This document shows, piece after piece, positions 30,963-40,843 of a DNA stretch of 64,000 nucleotides. The position numbers and the translations under genes are program-made. The DNA comes from Aliiroseovarius marinus (GTDB lineage: Bacteria; Pseudomonadota; Alphaproteobacteria; Rhodobacterales; Rhodobacteraceae): positions 64,069-128,068 of the forward strand of contig NZ_ML178715.1 in assembly GCF_004360145.1 (NCBI RefSeq), read 5' to 3'. Positions within the stretch are counted from its first letter, which is position 1; every line of letters starts with the position of its first letter. A model generated the notes under the pieces. It saw nothing but the letters and a program-made list of their open reading frames with translations, made no database searches and was not told the DNA's origin.

Positions 30963-31046
30963 ATCGCGACGCTCCGGGGCAGCCCCCGGATCGGAACGCG
31001 GGCCGAATTGACCCAGGTCTAACCGGTCCCACCTCCTACATTCTCG

Positions 31047-31078
31047 AAAGGGTCGTCCTGCTGGGGCGGCCCTTTTTC
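31047..31078 (+). terminator. Rho-independent terminator of the structured element
   Basis: AGGGTCGTCC pairs with GGGCGGCCCT over about ten base pairs (two G-U), with a short loop and a following TTTTT. It separates the candidate RNA from arfB. Confidence 0.85.
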
Positions 31079-31123
31079 GTATCTGCCATTCCCGTTGCGC
31101 ATCCGATTGGATAGGGTGCCCTT

Positions 31124-31543
31124 ATGATCCGCGTGAATGACGATATCACCCTGAAAGATTGGGAGCTGAGCGAGAGCTTTTCGCGTTCCTCAGGCCCCGG
31201 CGGGCAGAATGTGAACAAGGTCTCGACCGCCGTCGAATTGCGGTTCGAGGCCGCGCGCTCGCCGCATCTGTCGCAACCGGTGAAGGCACGACTGAAGCGG
31301 ATCGCCGGACGCAAATGGGCGCAGGACGGCGCGATCACCATCCGGGTCGAGGACACAAGAAGCCAAGCCCGCAACCGCGAGATCGCCGCCGAACGTCTGG
31401 CCGAGATGATCCGCAAAGCGCTGGTTGCCCCCAAGCGGCGCATTCCCACCAAACCAACCAAGGGCTCTCAACGCCGGCGCATGGATGCCAAAACCAAGCG
31501 CGGGCAGGTCAAAGCCCTGCGCGGGCGGGTCACCGACGACTGA
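31124..31543 (+). CDS. arfB: Alternative ribosome-rescue factor ArfB
   Basis: Peptidyl-tRNA hydrolase that frees ribosomes stalled on mRNA lacking a stop codon (YaeJ/ICT1 family). The 139-aa length, the catalytic GGQ at residues 26-28 in SSGPGGQNVNKVSTAVELRF, and a basic C-terminal tail (KPTKGSQRRRMDAKTKRGQVKALRGR) that enters the empty mRNA channel all fit ArfB and not full-length release factors. It starts 46 bases after the terminator of the structured element and seems to be a separate transcript. Confidence 0.94.
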   Translation: MIRVNDDITLKDWELSESFSRSSGPGGQNVNKVSTAVELRFEAARSPHLSQPVKARLKRIAGRKWAQDGAITIRVEDTRSQARNREIAAERLAEMIRKALVAPKRRIPTKPTKGSQRRRMDAKTKRGQVKALRGRVTDD

Positions 31544-31633
31544 CGCCACTTACTTAACAACGCAATTAATTTGCTTTGCGCCCAGCAAGCTGGCATAGTC
31601 GGCACAGAAACACCCGGCACAGTGGAGCATGAC

Positions 31634-32911
31634 ATGGCGGACACCTCTTCGATCCTGGAACGGCGCGCGCGGCTTCTTGGCCCGAACATGACCACCTTCT
31701 ATCGCGAGCCAGTTCATGTGGTCCGCGGCGAAGGGACATGGCTGTGGGATACGGACGGGAACCGCTATCTGGACTGCTACAACAACGTCCCGCATGTCGG
31801 TCACGCCCATCCGAAAGTCGTCGAGGCGATCACCAAGCAGGCCGCGACCCTGAACACCCACACCCGGTACCTGCACGAAGGCATTCTGGACTATGCCGAA
31901 CGTCTGACGGGCACGATGGATCACGGGCTGGACACGATGATCATGGTCTGCACCGGGTCCGAGGCGAACGACATCGCCCTGCGCATGGGCCGCGCGATGA
32001 CCGAGAAGGTGGGCATCATCTGCACCGACAACACCTATCACGGCAACACGGATCTGGTCAGCCAGATGTCATCGAAACGCACGCCGATTGGCGGGCCGGT
32101 GGAGTGGGTCAAGAAGGTGCCAGCCCCGGATACGCTGTCTCCGCTGGGCGGCAGCGCCGAGTCGCAACCACAGGCCTTTGCCGACGAGATCCAGCGCGCG
32201 ATTGATGAGCTGGAGGAGGCAGGGTACGGCTTCGGCACGCTGATCCTCGACCCGTTTTTCGCCAATGAAGGCTTTCATACGCTGCCCAAGGGGTTCCTTG
32301 ACCCTGCGGCCGCGGTTGTCCGTAAGGCAGGCGGCATCATCATCGCAGACGAGGTGCAACCGGGCTTTGGTCGGACTGGGCGCAATTTCTGGGGGCATGA
32401 CCGGATCGGGTTGGTGCCTGACATCGTGACGATGGGCAAGCCGATGGGGAACGGGCATCCCGTCGCAGCGGTCGTGACCCGCCCCGAGATCATGGCCGAA
32501 TTCCGCACCCGCTTTGGGTACTTCAACACCTTCGGCGGCAACCCGGTCTCTGCGGCGGCGGCGATGGCGGTTCTGGATGTGCTCGAAGAAGAAGAGCTGG
32601 TCCAAAACGCACGCGATACGGGTGACTATGCGTTGGGGCTGTTGAAAGAGCTATCCCATCCAATGATCGCCGACACCCGCGGCGCGGGCATGTTCATGGG
32701 CATCGAGTTCACGCGCGACGGCGACCCGGAAGGCGCAACGACATTCTGCAAAGATCTGGTCGAGGACATGCGCAATCGCGGTGTGCTCTTGCACCTGATG
32801 GGGCGGCATTATCACGGGATCAAAATCCGTCCGCCCATGTGTTTTGACCGGTCGCAGGCCGACCTTTTGGCCGAAACGCTGGACGCCGCGCTGAAGGCGG
32901 TACCTGCATGA
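31634..32911 (+). CDS. Class III PLP enzyme, ETNPPL-like aminotransferase/phospho-lyase
   Basis: A 425-aa PLP enzyme of aminotransferase class III. The stretch YLDCYNNVPHVGHAHP and LNTHTRYLHEGILDYAERL closely recall ethanolamine-phosphate and phosphohydroxylysine phospho-lyases (ETNPPL/PHYKPL). PLP lysine is Lys269 in MGKPMGNGHP; the cofactor aspartate is in IIADEVQPGFGRTG. The ATG at 31634 follows GTGGAGC. Its stop overlaps the start of a phosphotransferase gene (ATGA), so a kinase-then-phospho-lyase route for an amino alcohol is plausible. A plain transaminase role cannot be excluded. Confidence 0.85.
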   Translation: MADTSSILERRARLLGPNMTTFYREPVHVVRGEGTWLWDTDGNRYLDCYNNVPHVGHAHPKVVEAITKQAATLNTHTRYLHEGILDYAERLTGTMDHGLDTMIMVCTGSEANDIALRMGRAMTEKVGIICTDNTYHGNTDLVSQMSSKRTPIGGPVEWVKKVPAPDTLSPLGGSAESQPQAFADEIQRAIDELEEAGYGFGTLILDPFFANEGFHTLPKGFLDPAAAVVRKAGGIIIADEVQPGFGRTGRNFWGHDRIGLVPDIVTMGKPMGNGHPVAAVVTRPEIMAEFRTRFGYFNTFGGNPVSAAAAMAVLDVLEEEELVQNARDTGDYALGLLKELSHPMIADTRGAGMFMGIEFTRDGDPEGATTFCKDLVEDMRNRGVLLHLMGRHYHGIKIRPPMCFDRSQADLLAETLDAALKAVPA

Positions 32912-33852
32912 GCCCTTTCTTGAAACAGGCCCTCAAGGCATGGGGCGCGCAGCATGTGCGGATGATCAAGGATCGCGAAAACGCAGTGCATGAGGTGCGA
33001 ATTGCCGGCAAGCCCGCCGCGCTGCGGTTGCACCGTCCGGGGTACCAGTCCAAGGCCGCCATTCGGTCAGAGCTCGACTGGATGGCCGCGCTGGCCGAAC
33101 AGGGTATGCGGGTGCCGTCTCCTATCCCGACGACCGAAGGCGACCTTGTGTTTTCACTGGACGCGGACCAATGCGCGACGATGGTATCGTGGGTCGAGGG
33201 CGCGCCGATTGGGGAAAGTGGCGTGCCTCTGGACGGCTCGCCAGATGATCAAGCCGCGCTATACCGCAAAGTCGGGGCCGAGCTGGCGAAACTGCACAAC
33301 CTGACCGACGATATCCCCCTGCCCGAGGGCTTCACCCGTCACCGCTGGGACATCCCCGGCCTGCTGGGGGACGACCCGTTTTGGGGGCGGTTCTGGGAGT
33401 GCCCAGCGCTGCGCGAGGACGAGCGCAACTTGGTGCTGCGGGCGCGGGCTGTGGCGCATGATCTGGCCTCGGTCTACCTTGAAAACGGGGCGGATTTTGG
33501 GTTGATCCACGCGGACGTGCTGCGTGAAAACGTGTTTATTCACAAGGGCTTGCTAACCCTGATCGACTTCGACGACGCGGGCTTTGGGTTTCGGCTGTAC
33601 GACCTTGCGGTGATGATGTCGCAGAACGAACAGGAACCCGCGTATGAGGCGATCAAGGCGGCGGCGCTGGCGGGGTATCGGGAACACCGGGCGCTGAGCC
33701 AAGAGGCGGAAGACCTGCTGCCTATGTTCTTGATGTTACGACGTTTTGCGTCGATGGGCTGGGCGGTTCCGCGATACGATCCGACCGGCCCCGAGGTCGC
33801 CAGCTATACCCAAAAAGCCGTCATCGCCGCCCGGAATTTCCTTGGGGGATGA
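32908..33852 (+). CDS. APH-family phosphotransferase, hydroxylysine-kinase-like
   Basis: A 314-aa kinase of the aminoglycoside phosphotransferase/homoserine kinase type II fold. The Brenner motif is GLIHADVLRENVF with catalytic Asp near residue 210, and the metal motif is LIDFDDAGFGFRLYDLA. Given translational coupling to an ETNPPL-like lyase, I infer phosphorylation of a small amino alcohol such as hydroxylysine or ethanolamine, by analogy with human HYKK and PHYKPL. It converges with the reverse transcriptase gene. Confidence 0.85.
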   Translation: MSPFLKQALKAWGAQHVRMIKDRENAVHEVRIAGKPAALRLHRPGYQSKAAIRSELDWMAALAEQGMRVPSPIPTTEGDLVFSLDADQCATMVSWVEGAPIGESGVPLDGSPDDQAALYRKVGAELAKLHNLTDDIPLPEGFTRHRWDIPGLLGDDPFWGRFWECPALREDERNLVLRARAVAHDLASVYLENGADFGLIHADVLRENVFIHKGLLTLIDFDDAGFGFRLYDLAVMMSQNEQEPAYEAIKAAALAGYREHRALSQEAEDLLPMFLMLRRFASMGWAVPRYDPTGPEVASYTQKAVIAARNFLGG

Positions 33853-33972
33853 GGGCCGCGTGACGGGCGGAAATGCTTAGACCTTTTATCGCGGGACAGG
33901 TCGGGGCTTTAAAAAATTTTAACGGCGTTTTGGGGTGGGTTTTAAAGGGTTTAAAGGGGAAATTGACCGAGT
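33853..33972. other. AT-rich flank of the reverse transcriptase gene
   Basis: The gap between the kinase gene and the convergent reverse transcriptase gene is visibly AT-rich in its right half, with a tandem 9-base repeat TTTAAAGGG at 33941-33958 and the run TTTAAAAAATTTTAA near 33908. A small 5-bp hairpin (GACCT with AGGTC) is at about 33882-33904. No gene or clear terminator is seen. It may hold the outer edge of the inserted segment. Confidence 0.5.
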
Positions 33973-35613
33973 TCAAAGCGGGGGCTCATAATTTCCGTGA
34001 GCATGCATAAGAAAAGCGAAGAGTTGGTTAGACGTTCTTCTGCGCCGGAGGCGTTCTACGTTATCTCGCCGAGACCTTCGGAAAGTCTTCACATTTCGAT
34101 TGATGTCATAGAACTCGATCCTTCTAGCCTTGAGAGTTGAGAAGTAAGGATCCGAGTCCACATGGTTTGTGGATTCCGCACTTTGAAGCCACCCCTTCAC
34201 GTCGGCTTCATAAGCGAGAAGCCAATTTTCATCGCGCAAAGATGAAGACGTCATTTTTTGCTGCAATGTCCACAACTCACTACCTCCTTCGAGCAAACTA
34301 AGTCGTTCTAAGTCGAGAAGTATCAGCGAGCAGACCGAACTAGACATTTCGATCACAAGATTCGCAAGATCTTTGGATATCTCCCGGCGAAGTGCTTTCG
34401 CGAGGAAAAGCGCCCATGCGACTTCCTCGGTATGCATCAACGGTGCGGATGATCGAATTACGTCGTCAATCAATCGGTCTAGCCGTCTGGCAGAAACTGA
34501 GAAGCCGTTGAGCCGATAATTCGCAAGAATCTGAGTTACGATTGGAATAGTCAGATTGTCCGCGCGCGCGATCTTAAAAAGGTACCCCTCAAACAAAGAG
34601 AAATTCGCTCGCGTTATGGGAAACGAGCGAGCTAGTTTGATCGAGTAGAGCAGGACATTCTGCGACTTATTCTTAGCCGCGAGATCAAAACTTCTCGAGA
34701 AAAACAGTGATATTTGGCGTGATTGCTCCCGCGAGCTCGTGGCTTCAACCATGCAGTCCAGAAGCTCATCTGGCCAGAACGACCAAATGGGATCAGATGG
34801 GTGCAACACAGTTGTCTTCTCGATATTGAGATCCAAAGAATATTCAGCCATGGATCGAGAAAGCTTGCGTAGCAAGTCTTCGCCGTCGGAAGGACTTCCG
34901 ATTCCGATAAACCAGTCGTCAACATAGCGATAGACGTCTTCTGGAGCGACATTCGCCGAAGCGAGGAAATTCCGCTCCACACCAATTGCCAATACTTCAG
35001 ACAAGATCCTTGAGGTATCGGGCCCGGTTGGGATCCCTTGGCTTTGATTATCTTGGCACTTTCGTACAAGAATATCTAACTCTCCACCAATCGATGAATT
35101 TAGTGCAGAGCCAATGTTAGATTTACACCATTGCTTCCCTTCAAGAGCCCAAGCAATGGCGTGCGTATAAATAGTATCATAGAATCTCGAGATATCACTT
35201 CTGAAGATAAAGTCGTCGTTAGCTGACGCGTTGAGCTTGGCACTCTGAACTAACCTAAAATCGGGTTTCTCTATCGCCCGTTCGCCTTCTTCTGAGATAA
35301 TCGCCCTATCCAACGAAACGACGCCGTAGCTCAAATGGTCACGAATAGTTATCCAATTGTCAGAAATATGCTTAGAAAGATAATACTGGCTAATTGGATT
35401 GACGATCGCTAGCTGACGCCGTTTCAACCCAATACGCTTAATGGAATACCGTTCGTACTGTGTCTTGGGTGCGTAATTTGTTGGCCATGAATCTGTGATT
35501 GACTTGCGGTATTTGGCAAAACTTTGCGTGTTAAAGGGGGGAGGAAGTTCAATTGGGAAAAAGCCGCGCTCCAATAGAATTTTGAGGCGTTTCTGCTTTG
35601 TAATTGTTGCCAT
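33973..35613 (-). CDS. Reverse transcriptase, Abi/DRT-like, probable phage defence
   Basis: A 546-aa RNA-directed DNA polymerase. Motif A is FRSDISRFYDTIYTHAIAWAL with Asp140, motif B QSQGIPTGPDTSRILSEV at 190-207, motif C YVDD at 230-233, and motif D LNIEKT near 265. The C-terminal 270 residues are helical and leucine-rich with no maturase or endonuclease motif, which argues against a group II intron and favours the Abi/unknown-group (DRT) defence clades; the exact class is uncertain. The gene is much more AT-rich than its neighbours. Its ATG follows the pncB stop codon directly (TAG-ATG), with no ribosome site of its own except bases inside pncB. Confidence 0.85.
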   Translation of the reverse strand: MATITKQKRLKILLERGFFPIELPPPFNTQSFAKYRKSITDSWPTNYAPKTQYERYSIKRIGLKRRQLAIVNPISQYYLSKHISDNWITIRDHLSYGVVSLDRAIISEEGERAIEKPDFRLVQSAKLNASANDDFIFRSDISRFYDTIYTHAIAWALEGKQWCKSNIGSALNSSIGGELDILVRKCQDNQSQGIPTGPDTSRILSEVLAIGVERNFLASANVAPEDVYRYVDDWFIGIGSPSDGEDLLRKLSRSMAEYSLDLNIEKTTVLHPSDPIWSFWPDELLDCMVEATSSREQSRQISLFFSRSFDLAAKNKSQNVLLYSIKLARSFPITRANFSLFEGYLFKIARADNLTIPIVTQILANYRLNGFSVSARRLDRLIDDVIRSSAPLMHTEEVAWALFLAKALRREISKDLANLVIEMSSSVCSLILLDLERLSLLEGGSELWTLQQKMTSSSLRDENWLLAYEADVKGWLQSAESTNHVDSDPYFSTLKARRIEFYDINRNVKTFRRSRRDNVERLRRRRTSNQLFAFLMHAHGNYEPPL

Positions 35614-36906
35614 CTAAACTAAGACATCCATCTCTACCTGATCTCCAACACCAAATACACGTTTATAGCGAGCAATTTCAACCTCTGGCCCCATCGCCTT
35701 GTTGGGGTTGTCCGACAGCTTCACAGTGGCCCTTCCATTCGCTTTCACCGCCTTACAGACCAGCGAGAACGGGGCGAGGGCGTTGTCGGGGACGAGGTCT
35801 CGGAAATCGTTGGTCAGAAGGGTGCCCCAGCCAAAACTGGTGCGGACGCGGCCTGCGAATTGCTGGTGCAGTTCGATGATTTTGTCGGTGTCCAGACCGT
35901 CCGAGAAGATGACCATTTTCTGGGTGGGATCCTCGCCTCGCGCGGTCCACCAGTTGATGGCGGTCTCGGCGCCCGTGGCGGGGTCTCCGCTGTCGATGCG
36001 GATGCCGGTCCAGCCGGCCAGCCAATCAGGCGCGTTGTCCAGAAAGCCCTTGGTGCCATAGGTGTCGGGCAGGATGATGCGCAGGTTGCCGTCGTGTTCC
36101 TGCTGCCAATCGGCGAGCACGTCATAGGGGGCTTGGGCCAGTTCGGCGTCGTCTTGGGCCAAGGCCGCGTAGACCATGGGCAGCTCGTGGGCGTTGGTGC
36201 CGATGGCTTCGATGTCGCGCTTCATGGCGATGTGGCAGTTCGAGGTGCCGACGAAGCTGTCGCCCAACCCCTCCATCGCCGCTTGCACGCACCAGTCCTG
36301 CCAGAGGTAGGAGTGGCGGCGTCTTGTGCCGAAATCGGCAAGGCGGAGGCCGTCGAGGGCGCGGAGCCCGGAGATCTTCTCCCACGCGCGGGTCATGGCG
36401 CGGGCGTAGAGCACTTGCAGTTCGAACTTGCCCATGCCGCGCAGGACGGCGCGAGAGCGGAGTTCCATGAGGACGGAGAGCGCGGGGATTTCCCACAGCA
36501 TGACCTCGGGCCAGGAGCCTTCGAAGGTAAGCTCGTATTGGTCGCCGACGCGTTCGAGGTGGTAGGCGGGGAGGCGCATGTTCTCGAACCACTCCATGAA
36601 GTCGGAACGGAACATCTGGCGTTTGCCATAGAAGGTGTTGCCGCGTAGCCATGTACTTTCGCCGCGGGACAGGGTGAGCGAGCGGATGTGGTCGAGCTGT
36701 TCGCGCAGTTCACCTTCGTCGATGAGGTCGGCAAGGGGGACGTGTTTCGAGCGGTTGATCAGGCTGAAGGTGACTTGGGCGTCGGGCTTGTTGCGGAAGA
36801 CCAACTGGCACATCAAGAGCTTGTAGAAATCGGTGTCGATCAGCGAGCGGACGATCGGGTCGATCTTCCAGTTGTGGTCATAGACGCGGGTGGCGATATC
36901 TACCAT
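35614..36906 (-). CDS. pncB: Nicotinate phosphoribosyltransferase PncB
   Basis: Converts nicotinate and PRPP to nicotinate mononucleotide in NAD salvage (430 aa, normal length). Seen are DPIVRSLIDTDFYKLLMCQ at the N-terminus, LRALDGLRLADFGTRRRHS, the GTNAHELPMVY loop and IRIDSGDPATGAETAINWW. It starts directly after the pncA stop codon. The last 25 or so codons, from about 35,692 down to 35,614, switch to AT-rich codons (GTT, ATT, TTA, GTA, CGT) like those of the reverse transcriptase gene that follows, while the protein stays intact to the end. Confidence 0.95.
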   Translation of the reverse strand: MVDIATRVYDHNWKIDPIVRSLIDTDFYKLLMCQLVFRNKPDAQVTFSLINRSKHVPLADLIDEGELREQLDHIRSLTLSRGESTWLRGNTFYGKRQMFRSDFMEWFENMRLPAYHLERVGDQYELTFEGSWPEVMLWEIPALSVLMELRSRAVLRGMGKFELQVLYARAMTRAWEKISGLRALDGLRLADFGTRRRHSYLWQDWCVQAAMEGLGDSFVGTSNCHIAMKRDIEAIGTNAHELPMVYAALAQDDAELAQAPYDVLADWQQEHDGNLRIILPDTYGTKGFLDNAPDWLAGWTGIRIDSGDPATGAETAINWWTARGEDPTQKMVIFSDGLDTDKIIELHQQFAGRVRTSFGWGTLLTNDFRDLVPDNALAPFSLVCKAVKANGRATVKLSDNPNKAMGPEVEIARYKRVFGVGDQVEMDVLV

Positions 36907-37515
36907 TTAGGCCTCCAGTTTCACGCCAGCGGCGCGCATGTTGTCACGGGCGGCGGCCAGCGAGCCATCAAGGTCGATGGCGCGGCAGGCGGGTTCAAGG
37001 ACGGTGACGTCGAAGCCCAGTTTGGCGCCGTCGATGGCCGAGTATGCAACGCAGAAATCGGTGGCGAGGCCAACCATGGTCAGCTTGGTGATGCCACGGG
37101 TGCGCAGGTAGCCTTCCAGCCCGGTGGGAGTGGTCTGGTCGTTCTCGAAGAAGGCGGAATAGCTGTCGATCTGCGGGCGGAAGCCTTTGCGGATAACCAT
37201 GTCGGCGGGATCGGTCAGAAGGTCAGGGTGAAACGCCGCGCCGTCCGTACCCTGCACGCAGTGGTCAGGCCAGAGGACTTGGGGGCCATAGGGCATTTCG
37301 GTCATCTCAAACGGGGCTTTACCCTCGTGAGACGTGGCGAAGGACGAATGGCCCGCCGGGTGCCAGTCCTGTGTGAAGACCTTTACGGCGAAATCCGGCA
37401 GCATGGCATTGATCAGGGAAACGATCTGGTCCCCTTCGGCAACGGCAAGGGCACCGCCGGGGCAGAAATCGTTCTGCACGTCGATCACGATCAGGGCTTC
37501 ATCTGCATTGCGCAT
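36907..37515 (-). CDS. pncA: Nicotinamidase PncA
   Basis: Hydrolyses nicotinamide to nicotinate, feeding PncB in the same operon (202 aa). Catalytic Asp is in VIDVQNDFCPGG, Lys in MVIRKGFR and Cys in GLATDFCVAYSA; metal ligands are in TQDWHPAGHSSF. The last codons touch the first of pncB, so translation is coupled. The ribosome site AAGGAGG precedes the start. The family includes pyrazinamidases. Confidence 0.95.
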   Translation of the reverse strand: MRNADEALIVIDVQNDFCPGGALAVAEGDQIVSLINAMLPDFAVKVFTQDWHPAGHSSFATSHEGKAPFEMTEMPYGPQVLWPDHCVQGTDGAAFHPDLLTDPADMVIRKGFRPQIDSYSAFFENDQTTPTGLEGYLRTRGITKLTMVGLATDFCVAYSAIDGAKLGFDVTVLEPACRAIDLDGSLAAARDNMRAAGVKLEA

Positions 37516-37602
37516 GTCGGGTCCTCCTTGAAACTCAATGGGTAAGGACCGGGCGCGGTAGGGTCAAGTAAATGGCCAGACGACTTGTATAGAGCCGCCA
37601 CG

Positions 37603-37636
37603 AAAAAGGGGCGCGACAGTGCTGTCCGCGCCCCTC
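37603..37636 (-). terminator. Rho-independent terminator of the export-protein gene
   Basis: On the minus strand a 12-bp GC-rich stem with one bulged base (GGGGCGCG plus ACAG against their complements) is followed by TTTTTCG. It ends the capsule export unit about 20 bases after the stop codon. Confidence 0.9.
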
Positions 37637-37655
37637 AATTAAACGGCCTTTAGGA

Positions 37656-38756
37656 TTAAAGCTTGGTCACGTTGACCGCGACACCGGTCAGGTTGCGCAG
37701 CAGCCCAAGCAATGTGTTGGAGGCCGCGACAGAGCTTTCGGTGACAAGGACGGTGTCTTTGCTGTGGATCTGGAACTTGCCCGCGCTGAACAGACCGTCG
37801 GCGGTTGTCAGGTCGATCACAAAGACGCTGCGCGCATTGTCCGGCCCCTGATCGTCCTGGCGCACGACAGATTGCGGATATTCGCGCAGGATCAGGATCC
37901 CTTTGGGGTTGGCGCGGTTTTCCGACAGACCGCCGATCAGCGACATCGCATCAAGCGCCGAGATCTCGGATTTCGAGAACGGGATCAATGCTTCTTTCGA
38001 GGCCGCCCCCAGCGAGCGGAAATAGCGGCTGTCATTCTCGACGGCCAGCTTGTCGCCGGGGCGCAGGTAGGTGTCATAGGACGCGTCGGACATCACCTGT
38101 GACAGCGGGCGCAGATAGGTCTGATTGCCACGGACCAGCTTGACGCTGGGGTTTTCCAAGCCGCGCTCGGGGCCTCCGGCAGCGGCGATCGCATTCAGCA
38201 CAGTAAAGCTGGGGTCATCCAAAGTGATCGGTCCGGGGCGCGAAACGCCCGACACGACCGACACCGTACCGCGGGTGCCTTGCGTGACGTTCAACTGCAC
38301 CTGAGCCGACGGGATGGCTTCGACATATTTGCGCTGAATTCTGGCGCGGGCTGCGGAATGGGGCATGCCTGCGATATGCACCGAGCCAACGAAGGGCAGG
38401 AAGATTGTGCCGCCCGCCGAGACCAGCATGTTCTTCATCTCGACCGTGTTCTGGTTGGGAGACGACAGAAGCGAAGATTCCTCGCTGTCCCAAACAATCA
38501 CGTCCACGCGATCAAACGGCCTGATCGGCTTGTCAGCCGCTGCCGATCCGCGCGACGGCCACGAATAGTCGCCTTCGGCATTGGGCGCAGGCCAGCGTGA
38601 AATCGCCGGCAGGGTCGCTTTGGTCACGTTGTAAACGGCCAAATCCGCTCTGCTCTCAGACTCGCTTCCGACGATTTCGGACTGAACGGCCGCCCCACGA
38701 GGCAGGCCACAGCTAGCAAGAGCAAGGGCAGAAACTGCAATTAAAACAAAACGCAT
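37656..38756 (-). CDS. Polysaccharide export outer-membrane lipoprotein, KpsD/Wza-like
   Basis: Predicted outer-membrane channel component for capsule export (366 aa). The signal peptide ends in the lipobox ALASC, giving a lipidated Cys16. A Poly_export domain follows (about 80-165, RPFDRVDVIVWDSEE and SAGGTIFLPFVGSVHIAG), then SLBB-type segments (GPITLDDPSFTVLNAIAAAGG and IPFSKSEISALDAMSLIGGL). The ATG at 38756 gives the lipoprotein signal; an upstream start adds 11 unlikely residues. It lies 158 bases after kpsT and may have its own promoter. Confidence 0.9.
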   Translation of the reverse strand: MRFVLIAVSALALASCGLPRGAAVQSEIVGSESESRADLAVYNVTKATLPAISRWPAPNAEGDYSWPSRGSAAADKPIRPFDRVDVIVWDSEESSLLSSPNQNTVEMKNMLVSAGGTIFLPFVGSVHIAGMPHSAARARIQRKYVEAIPSAQVQLNVTQGTRGTVSVVSGVSRPGPITLDDPSFTVLNAIAAAGGPERGLENPSVKLVRGNQTYLRPLSQVMSDASYDTYLRPGDKLAVENDSRYFRSLGAASKEALIPFSKSEISALDAMSLIGGLSENRANPKGILILREYPQSVVRQDDQGPDNARSVFVIDLTTADGLFSAGKFQIHSKDTVLVTESSVAASNTLLGLLRNLTGVAVNVTKL

Positions 38757-38914
38757 ACGCGCAATCCCCAAGGTTATTTCGTGGTTCAAGGCAGCAAACC
38801 AATTGAGCGCACATTAGTAACGAAGCTGCGTTTTCTCAAGCGTCGAGACGTGGATTTCGATGTTAATTCCGAACTGTGCACAATTTGCAGTATCTCGGGT
38901 GAGTTGCAGTGGGA

Positions 38915-39568
38915 TCAGGCTGTCATCTCGCGATGCAATTCAATCGCTTCTTCAACATCGTCATAATAGGTCAGGCGCCCGTCATCCAAAATACACGCCG
39001 CATCGCATACATTCGAGATCACACGCAGGTTGTGGGTCACCAAAAGCGCACCGCTACTTTCCATTCGGTCACGGAAGACGCGCATGCTTTTCTTGCGAAA
39101 CGCCGCGTCCCCCACCGACGTGACCTCGTCCACCAGATAGACATCGAACTTGATGCCCATCGACAGGCCAAAAGCCAGCCGTGATTTCATACCCGAGGAA
39201 TAGGTGCGCACAGGCAGATAGAACTGCTGCCCCAGATCGGCGAAGTCTTCGACATATTCGCGCAGCTCTTCGGTATCGACCCCGTAAATGCGCGCAAGGA
39301 ACTTGGTGTTCTGCGCGCCTGTCAGATCCTTGTGAAAACTGCCCGCAAATCCGACTGGCCAACTGACGGTACCGTCAATCGCGATGGTGCCACTGTCCTG
39401 ACGCATCGTACCGGCGACCATCCGCAATAGGCTGGATTTACCGGCCCCATTGCGCCCCAGCAGGCCGACGACCTTGCCCGGTTCAAAATCAACCGAGATA
39501 TTGTCAGCCACGACCTTGGTTTGCCCCTGCAAGCGATACGCTTTGCGCAGTTTTCGGATCCGGATCAT
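38915..39568 (-). CDS. kpsT: Capsule polysaccharide ABC transporter ATPase KpsT
   Basis: ATP-binding subunit of the ABC exporter that moves lipid-linked capsule polysaccharide across the inner membrane, paired with KpsM. In 217 aa: Walker A GLLGRNGAGKSSLL near residue 38, signature YSSGMKSRLAFGLSM near 128, Walker B VYLVDEVTSVGD and the switch histidine in LVTHNL. The short length without a C-terminal carbohydrate-binding domain fits KpsT rather than Wzt of O-antigen systems. It follows kpsE by nine bases. Confidence 0.93.
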   Translation of the reverse strand: MIRIRKLRKAYRLQGQTKVVADNISVDFEPGKVVGLLGRNGAGKSSLLRMVAGTMRQDSGTIAIDGTVSWPVGFAGSFHKDLTGAQNTKFLARIYGVDTEELREYVEDFADLGQQFYLPVRTYSSGMKSRLAFGLSMGIKFDVYLVDEVTSVGDAAFRKKSMRVFRDRMESSGALLVTHNLRVISNVCDAACILDDGRLTYYDDVEEAIELHREMTA

Positions 39569-39577
39569 ACGGCGGCC

Positions 39578-40843
39578 CTATCGTCTGTCGCGGACCGAAT
39601 AATAGACCATGGTTGCCACCACCCAGATACCAATCAAGAACCCGGAAAGCGTGGCAAGAATAATCAGGCGCTGCGGGAATTGGGGCGTCTCGGACAAAGT
39701 CGGTTCGATATAGGCCGCAAGATAGCGCGACTTGCGCGCCGCTTCGGCGGTGGCCACATCCAAGGACGCCAGTGCGGACAGATAGGCTTGTTCGGCGAAC
39801 TGTTTGTCGACCGAAAGACGCTCGTAGTCGCCAATCAGGTTGGCATAGGAGCCATTCACCGTGCCATCGGTGTTGCTGAACCGCGCACGCTCTTCGGCCA
39901 GACGTTGCTCGATCACATCCACGCGGCGACGTGCCTGGATCAGGCGGGGGTCACTTTCGCGTGCCGTCTGCATCAGGATATCCAGATCGATCTGAGCCGA
40001 GGCCAGCTGGTTTTGCAGCGAGTTCAACAGCCCCATCCGGCCGACAATGTCTGCCTCGGGATCGATGATCTGGGTTTCAAGCCGGAACTTCTGGATCGCG
40101 GCACGCGCCGAGCTCAGGCGCTCGACGGCTTTCTCAAGCTCGCTACGGGCATAGCTGGTGGCGTCTTCGCGCGCGACGGCAGTCAGCTTGTTGATCATAA
40201 CGGTGCTCTCGTCATAGATCGCATCCGCGACGGCCTTGGCGTCTTCCGGCGTAAAGGCGGTGACCCGCACTTCGATCAGACCCGATCCGCTGTCATAGAA
40301 AACCTTCACAACCCGGCCCCAGAATTTCTGAAGCCCCTCGATGGTTGCATCGGGGTCGATGCCGAAAATCGGGTCGGAGGGCATGTGGTACATAGAGCGC
40401 AGGTCCAGCCGCTCGTCCACCAGCCGGACGATGCGCTGGCTTTGAATGAACTCGAACAGAACGTCGGTATCGGTACCACTGGACGATCCGGCCAGCTCGG
40501 TGATGCCACCCAGCATCTCGACCGGCGAGGCGCTATCTTCTGCCCGCACCGAGAATCCCAGATACGAGGCGTACTGATCCTTGGCGATGACATAGAGGTA
40601 TACCGTTGCCAAGAAGATCGGCGCCAAAACGCCTAGCAGGAACAACCTGCGGATCATCTTGTGCCGTTTGCGGGGGCGGGCGGGCTTTGCGTGCGGACGA
40701 GGGGGCGGAAGGTCCTTACCCGCCTGCTCTTCTTCGCCCCAGCCGTCATCATCCAGCTCGTCCTGCTCAGCATGTGAGATCTGGGCATCCTTGCGGAGTT
40801 CCGTCTCGGGCTTGGGGTTGGGCGCTTCAGAAGACTGGGTCAT
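39578..40843 (-). CDS. kpsE: Capsule export inner-membrane protein KpsE
   Basis: Periplasm-spanning PCP-type protein linking the KpsMT transporter to the outer-membrane channel (421 aa). A charged, Pro-rich cytoplasmic N-terminus (about 60 residues) leads into a membrane helix (LFLLGVLAPIFLATVYLYVI), a Wzz-like periplasmic part, a long coiled coil (about 200-330), and a second helix near 395-417 (LIILATLSGFLIGIWVVATMVYY) after the PQFPQR motif. It is divergent from kpsM with a 90-base gap, where both promoters must lie. Confidence 0.92.
   Translation of the reverse strand: MTQSSEAPNPKPETELRKDAQISHAEQDELDDDGWGEEEQAGKDLPPPRPHAKPARPRKRHKMIRRLFLLGVLAPIFLATVYLYVIAKDQYASYLGFSVRAEDSASPVEMLGGITELAGSSSGTDTDVLFEFIQSQRIVRLVDERLDLRSMYHMPSDPIFGIDPDATIEGLQKFWGRVVKVFYDSGSGLIEVRVTAFTPEDAKAVADAIYDESTVMINKLTAVAREDATSYARSELEKAVERLSSARAAIQKFRLETQIIDPEADIVGRMGLLNSLQNQLASAQIDLDILMQTARESDPRLIQARRRVDVIEQRLAEERARFSNTDGTVNGSYANLIGDYERLSVDKQFAEQAYLSALASLDVATAEAARKSRYLAAYIEPTLSETPQFPQRLIILATLSGFLIGIWVVATMVYYSVRDRR

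Follow-up and report, generated by a model that had tools for sequence, protein, structure and literature searches.

The window (the whole 64,000-nucleotide stretch of Aliiroseovarius marinus DNA analysed here) carries a reverse transcriptase (RT) gene between the end of pncB and a convergent kinase gene. The genes and features of this region, with coordinates in the window, are:

31124..31543, + strand: gene with a GPGGQNVNK motif; marks the right-hand edge of this site in other genera
32908..33852, + strand: APH-family kinase gene, convergent; right border of the swap site in Aliiroseovarius
33853..33965, no strand: non-coding right flank, pieces of which (44-107 bp) recur at the site beside unrelated cargo
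33973..35613, - strand: reverse transcriptase filed as DRT6, 546 aa, with D140, YVDD 230-233 and candidate priming Tyr542
35614..36906, - strand: pncB (nicotinate phosphoribosyltransferase gene), with the left border of the swap site at its 3' end
35614..35690, - strand: terminal ~75 bp of pncB, AT-shifted (GC 0.47 over the last 100 bp)
36907..37515, - strand: pncA, nicotinamidase

The gene with the GPGGQNVNK motif, which we take to encode an ArfB-type release factor, lies two genes beyond the kinase-side border of the RT site. As described in the initial annotation, the open reading frame at 33973-35613 is real (546 aa, minus strand), its ATG directly follows the TAG of pncB with 0 nt between them, and the pncA and pncB identities are borne out by Pfam and NCBIfam profiles. 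The RT gene is AT-rich (GC 0.47, vs 0.61 for pncB and 0.63 for the kinase gene), as also noted there, is single-copy with one match in its own genome, and is accompanied by no second gene between pncB and the kinase gene.

The encoded protein contains the motif A aspartate (Asp140) and the YVDD sequence (230-233) reported earlier; in an alignment of 22 related RTs, the window RT included, D140 and D232 are invariant and D233 is conserved in at least 90%. Pfam RVT_1 matches at 35.9 bits (cut-off 29.6), and no other Pfam family was found at E up to 0.1, in keeping with the proposed lack of a nuclease or maturase domain. Among the best 25 of 52 matching PADLOC families, the top profile is Drt6 (525 bits, residues 8-522 on 2-497 of 511), followed by two Drt4 models; AbiK (119 bits), Drt3b (107 bits) and AbiP2 (82 bits) score lower, the AbiK and AbiP2 matches covering only about residues 27-269 and 47-269, respectively. 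No retron profile is among these 25 families, and no Rfam match lies nearby. The best phmmer match in the PDB is 9wy8_A (E 1e-73, residues 8-505), with UG15/DRT4 and AbiK behind it. An AlphaFold model (window protein plus nine viral-contig relatives; mean pLDDT 77.5, pTM 0.78) predicts the helical C-terminal half that had been proposed, and its top Foldseek match is again 9wy8_A, a cryo-EM structure described as 'hexameric DRT6' (TM 0.85/0.93, rmsd 2.4, 30% identity). Among the best 50 of 780 Foldseek matches, DRT4/UG15 structures reach TM 0.74-0.76 and AbiK and AbiP2, likewise composed of an RT and helical repeats, 0.55-0.67, all by query length. The protein does not cluster with group II intron RTs, whose structures reach at most TM 0.37 by query length (vs 0.85 for DRT6) and up to 0.56 by their own shorter length; the NCBIfam group II maturase model TIGR04416 gives 39 bits and misses its cut-off of 300. 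In a quick tree of 31 RTs, the window protein groups with eight Drt6 rows and six viral rows, apart from Drt3b and AbiP2, on a branch with an SH-aLRT value of 81, below the 95 of firm support; the tree gives no firm order inside the group.

From its sequence and predicted fold, we file the window RT as DRT6 (presumably the same as UG12), a new and rather distant member of a known antiphage family. The Abi/DRT-type assignment of the initial annotation stands in this refined form. The window RT resembles 9wy8 in its nearly full-length sequence and fold match, its catalytic aspartates and its apparent single-gene make-up, and differs in being a distant homologue with few acidic C-terminal residues and a marine Roseobacteraceae host. 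AbiK and AbiP2 are set apart by their low, partial PADLOC matches. It is improbable that the protein is instead a DRT4 (UG15) or belongs to a separate sister class that has a trigger and product of its own: the two Drt4 models do match almost the full length (454 and 443 bits), the DRT4 and UG15 structures share its architecture, and the nearest homologues are only ~35% identical, but Drt6 scores highest in PADLOC, both here and in eight of 10 related RTs scanned (the other two being AbiP2), the curated NCBIfam Drt4 equivalog gives 193.4 bits and misses its cut-off of 450, and 9wy8 is ahead of DRT4/UG15 in sequence (E 1e-73 vs 6e-20) as well as in fold (TM 0.85 vs 0.76). DRT6 is among the less studied DRT classes, and a distant member helps to ask which parts of the enzyme are required.

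According to two reports (PMC13213688, PMC13314766), DRT4 makes random single-stranded DNA (ssDNA) without a template, this ssDNA turns toxic once the phage protein ORF55 shields its 3' end, and DRT6 is a single-gene relative of DRT4 that is also activated by ORF55. Class 1 systems typically have HEAT-like repeats, and those studied so far are described as template-independent (PMC13174585, PMC13314766, PMC13213688); the priming residue of DRT3b is given as Tyr666 (PMC13174585). We consider it likely that the window gene encodes a DRT6-type Class 1 UG/Abi RT, a template-free antiphage enzyme carried as cargo of a recombining pncB swap site. The protein would consist of an RT domain and HEAT-like helical repeats and would probably be hexameric, working in a manner similar to that of DRT4. 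We infer that it synthesizes ssDNA without an RNA template, primed from its own tyrosine (candidate Tyr542 near the C terminus), and that this product would be degraded in uninfected cells. On infection, a phage DNA-binding protein, ORF55 being the reported activator of DRT4 and DRT6, would shield the ssDNA, which would then accumulate and stop the infected cell. The gene would have arrived as compact cargo in the swap site that separates the pncB 3' end from the convergent neighbour, and in which one short cassette, often of defence type, may be exchanged for another by homologous recombination through the flanks.

Each of the 15 proteins in the tree group of the window RT has a tyrosine among its final 16 residues, and 12 have one among the final six; in the window RT it is Tyr542. 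All six Drt3b proteins end in Tyr or Tyr-Ala, where the priming Tyr666 of DRT3b would lie. A C-terminal priming tyrosine is not universal in the group, since three of the 15 proteins (L153, L151 and L180) have a C-terminal Phe, their nearest Tyr lying 12-16 residues before it, and AbiK priming may be N-terminal, to judge from the title of PDB entry 7z0z (AbiK Y44F variant). Because of the Phe-ending proteins and AbiK Y44F, Tyr542 is only a candidate priming residue. The trigger and product of the window RT may differ from those of its relatives, as its nearest DRT6 relatives are only ~35% identical. The tails of the group show a further pattern: 10 of the 15 proteins (L033-L036, L151-L153, L175, L176 and L180) have at least 10 acidic (D/E) residues among their final 40, usually followed by a terminal aromatic residue (DEY, DDYFLY, EDF), and resemble the tails of ssDNA-binding proteins. 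The window protein, with three such residues (coding positions 33973-34100), L032, L178, L179 and largely L177 are without this acidic tail.

DRT6 was found in one of 21 Aliiroseovarius genomes. In the class, the Drt6 profile matches 11 of 385 genomes at E 1e-30, six of them, the window's own genome included, at more than 400 bits; the family is uncommon in the class. The gene is thus far from present at this site across all relatives, and its occurrence in one of 21 genomes, together with five genus genomes that have a near-empty site, agrees with the horizontal acquisition proposed in the initial annotation: the RT gene was probably acquired. In the named genome collection, no relatives were confirmed by peptide patterns. 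Of 209 matching plasmid records, seven span 80% or more of the protein (about 27-28% identity), and none of seven phage records does. The closest DRT6 relatives, L175, L176 and L177, are on IMG/VR viral contigs (32-36% identity), and prophages may carry the DRT6 type of the window. In a genus genome of other gene order, a 715-aa open frame (G013:C12 near 488308, L232) has a weak match covering a Drt6-like RT core; from its length it is probably a Drt3b.

In 15 of the 21 Aliiroseovarius genomes, pncB adjoins the convergent kinase gene; left out of this count are G001, G007, G013 and G019, with another gene order, and G009 and G010, in which pncB was not found. Five of the 15 sites (G004, G008, G012, G016 and G020) are near-empty, with 9-38 bp between the stop codons, and 10 are filled: nine inserts measure 1450-1851 bp and the tenth 3806 bp. 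On the kinase side of these 15 genomes, none of the six gaps in a seven-gene stretch is longer than 372 bp. The pncA side is less even, with one gap of about 1.05 kb in eight genomes and another of 2.3 kb in two, and beyond pncA several genes went undetected within the 20-kb stretch in a number of genomes. The 10 filled sites hold nine kinds of cargo:

G000 (window): DRT6
G014 (L059 1270-2908): PRTase-CE and NADAR proteins, NCBIfam DS32 (347.5 bits vs a cut-off of 250, and 240.2 vs 240)
G005: DUF5677 protein, weak PADLOC DitA match (92 bits)
G015 (L053 1392-3032): TIGR04141/DUF6119 protein
G003: pentapeptide and DUF900 hydrolase
G006 (L058 1627-3151): homologue of the G003 cargo, 70% DNA identity, in two overlapping frames
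G018: acyltransferase 3
G017 (L054 1330-2787): 485-aa protein, no match
G011: three small genes, one with an HTH
G002: IS1595 transposase, Gp49/HTH_37 pair and coiled-coil-like protein

The remaining PADLOC matches among the genus cargo are faint (at most 37 bits). At E 1e-3, no DNA similarity was found between inserts besides the G003/G006 pair and the right-flank stretch. The G006 cargo, split into two frames compared with G003, may be decaying. PRTase-CE and NADAR domains belong to nucleotide and ADP-ribose chemistry, and the DS32 antiphage pair of G014 lies at this position next to the NAD-salvage genes; that the two are functionally linked is only a thought.

For the other genera, 80 named pncB loci were examined, of which three duplicates of genus genomes were dropped to leave 77; one of these, L079 (not filled), is itself Aliiroseovarius. 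A locus was called filled when the stretch between pncB and arfB had a GC content at least 0.10 lower than that of pncB (nine loci); L097 was added by eye on its first 1.5 kb, and L075, with a difference of 0.08, was left out. By this measure, 10 of the 77 loci carry an AT-rich stretch directly behind pncB:

L138 (Jannaschia): ParA-like and HEPN
L085: PIN_8
L074 (Celeribacter): HSP90-like ATPase
L084 (Celeribacter): filled site, ArfB-like gene 888 bp from pncB
L132 and L115 (Pseudooceanicola): trypsin-like protein
L097, 7515-8837 (Maritimibacter): 440-aa protein, no match
L071 (Pacificibacter): filled site
L092: AbiD (243 bits)
L111: filled site

In eight of these 10 loci the insert is bounded on its far side by the end of the ArfB-like gene, at 0-134 bp from the final cargo ORF. 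Over the genus and the other genera together, the insert measures 0.9-1.9 kb at 18 of the 19 sites with a measured interval (L097 left out). Matches to known defence families are firm at three of the 20 sites (DRT6, DS32 and AbiD) and weak at one (DitA), and at the other 16 they are absent or only faint; the PADLOC scan covered at least one cargo ORF at 18 of the 20 sites and left out G006, L084 and small ORFs at several sites. No integrase was recognised among the scanned cargo ORFs, and one site holds IS1595. By ORF calls, eight of the 20 cargoes run with pncB and 12 against it. With this mixed orientation, the idea that cargo is bound to the pncAB promoter was rejected, and the promoter use proposed in the initial annotation is not supported as a general rule; read-through from pncB into the window RT is plausible.

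The right flank of the RT gene (33853-33965) is single-copy in its own genome. Pieces of it occur at the same site in G002, G003, G011 and G015, with 44 bp in G005, so that it is present at six of the 10 filled genus sites; it was not detected at the other four filled or the five near-empty genus sites. A further piece in G009 lies at a contig end, adjoining the kinase gene, and matches of 20-27 bp at other places in G008, G010 and G017 probably reflect chance. The flank thus has as its neighbour a TIGR04141 protein (G015), a three-gene unit (G011), an IS1595-containing unit (G002), a pentapeptide-DUF900 gene (G003) or a DUF5677 gene (G005). It was ruled out as an RT-specific RNA, because it recurs beside unrelated cargo and so belongs to the site, perhaps as a right-hand homology arm. 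This bears on whether the window RT depends on a nearby-encoded RNA template, like DRT2, DRT3a and DRT9, which we regard as highly improbable. Such an RNA is required by some DRT classes, and this flank is a conserved non-coding stretch downstream of the RT gene; yet it also occurs next to unrelated cargo, no Rfam family matches in 31000-40000 at E up to 0.1, the RT gene has no gap upstream, and template independence is reported for the Class 1 DRTs examined to date. No partner gene is present here, nor, by eye, is one common to the neighbourhoods of eight homologues. The initial annotation, which placed a template RNA, if there is one, in the pncB end, within the gene or downstream, was right about the missing upstream gap; given the reported template independence of Class 1 relatives and the unrelated cargo beside the downstream stretch, the search for one is probably moot. 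An RNA partner is dispensable for explaining the gene.

Filled sites of different genera share the end of pncB. Over the last 18 bp, identity between different genera is 0.81 for filled-filled pairs (140 pairs), compared with 0.65 for other-other (2546 pairs) and 0.64 for filled-other pairs (1388 pairs), in a comparison where few genera are labelled and some other-other pairs may be same-genus. At 18-36 bp the values are 0.72 for the filled set vs 0.64, over four windows from 36 to 150 bp the two sets are level, and at 300 bp the filled set is again ahead (0.82 vs 0.74), so kinship may contribute to the likeness of the ends. The last codon of pncB is GTT in 18 of 20 filled sites vs 15 of 72 other sites, the latter including loci with a downstream state assigned from composition alone; the Fisher value of 2e-8 is an overstatement, since related rows count repeatedly. 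Overlapping stop codons do not explain the codon, because GTT is present in all eight sites whose cargo runs with pncB. In the window, the last ~75 bp of pncB reach no more than 0.80 identity to any of 14 genus relatives, and were probably imported together with the cargo.

One pair of genomes, G005 and G014, carries unrelated cargo and differs in the last 67 bp of pncB. Between -600 and -60 their pncB genes show 0-6 differences per block of 60, and in the last 60 bp 21 of 60; the G014 tail resembles that of G011 (7/60 differences). In the rest of pncB the pair is 0.93-0.97 identical, in the first 300 bp of the kinase gene 0.97-0.99, and immediately outside, towards pncA, 0.80-0.89; four other pairs of this clade have 0.83-0.95 in that same part of pncB, and some pairs of the other clade reach 0.98 with no such pattern. 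As a trace of recombination, this block of raised identity is suggestive, not proof, and the recombination evidence as a whole comes mainly from this one pair. The G006 tail is closest to that of G002, and its whole pncB is closest to that of G014. A copy of the pncB tail was looked for at the far end of the insert at the 10 genus sites, in its last 400 bp and the adjoining 60 bp of the neighbour; none exceeded the best of 40 shuffles, which G003 equalled, and duplication of an attachment site was rejected on this ground. Copies of GGTTTA were rejected as an attachment repeat, as they occur near the far end in just three of the 10 genus sites. The joint change of cargo and tail between G005 and G014, the shared pncB ends and the lack of a far-end tail copy point to replacement of the cargo together with a bit of pncB by homologous recombination, as judged from these sequence comparisons. 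The window's own genome has a GTA_TIM gene (508.7 bits), presumably a marker of the Rhodobacterales gene transfer agent. Gene transfer agent particles hold about 4 kb, and their involvement at the pncB site is a guess.

We tentatively propose, as a real possibility that falls short of probable, that the 3' end of pncB is a docking site in several Roseobacteraceae genera for integrase-free defence cassettes of ~1-2 kb, which would move with the pncB tail by homologous recombination, perhaps in gene transfer agent particles, so that each strain holds one antiphage unit at a time; the small capacity of those particles would then account for the size limit. The shared pncB ends could also be read as the attachment sequence (the last ~18 bp) of a site-specific recombinase that acts in trans, and the insertion of cargo at the pncB stop regardless of the other neighbour and the uniform insert sizes fit that reading. 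Integration at a gene end would, however, leave a copy of the pncB end, which was not found above the best shuffle at the 10 genus sites, no integrase is recognised among the scanned cargo ORFs, and the changed 67-bp tail of G014, resembling that of G011, is explained by recombination; we judge such a recombinase unlikely. Somewhat unlikely, too, is that this convergent intergenic region just tolerates any gene that is acquired, the cargo having no special defensive role and the RT being an incidental passenger. Convergent gene ends are safe landing places, and some of the cargo (acyltransferase, trypsin-like protein, DUF900 hydrolase) is not obviously defensive; against this, the six kinase-side gaps never exceed 372 bp in the same 15 genomes, and DRT6, DS32, AbiD and a DitA-like protein among 20 sites look above chance as a raw count.

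With fixed core flanks, varied cargo, and 10 filled and five near-empty sites among 15, the pncB site has the layout of a core defence hotspot, and its presumed defensive character rests on the three firm and one weak family matches at 20 sites. The core defence hotspots cDHS1 and cDHS2 of Pseudomonas aeruginosa are framed by fixed genes, have median sizes of 26 and 6 kb, and are suggested to be transferred by recombination through their flanks (PMC10250203). The pncB site is like them in its varied low-GC cargo, which includes defence systems, in its fixed core genes, in the lack of a single mobile element and in the homologous recombination suggested for both. It differs in holding one compact cassette, mostly of 0.9-1.9 kb, and in occurring in several genera with a linked change of the pncB 3' end. 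Titles and abstracts from the open-access library consulted, and PMC13386836, hold no description of the pncB site, and on that basis it is an instance, so far unreported and unusually compact, of a known type of hotspot. The site matters more than the enzyme: its gene pair is fixed and easy to find and holds a single short cassette in each genome, so that candidate compact defence systems of marine Roseobacteraceae can be reached directly. If the docking-site proposal is true, the unknown cargo is a ready list of new compact defence systems, with the single-gene cargo of G017, G015 and L097 as candidates. The route by which defence genes turn over becomes testable through recent exchanges like the one between the G005 and G014 lineages. 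Outside the 20-site counts, G026 (an OLD-like ATPase with TOPRIM) and G031 also carry cargo.
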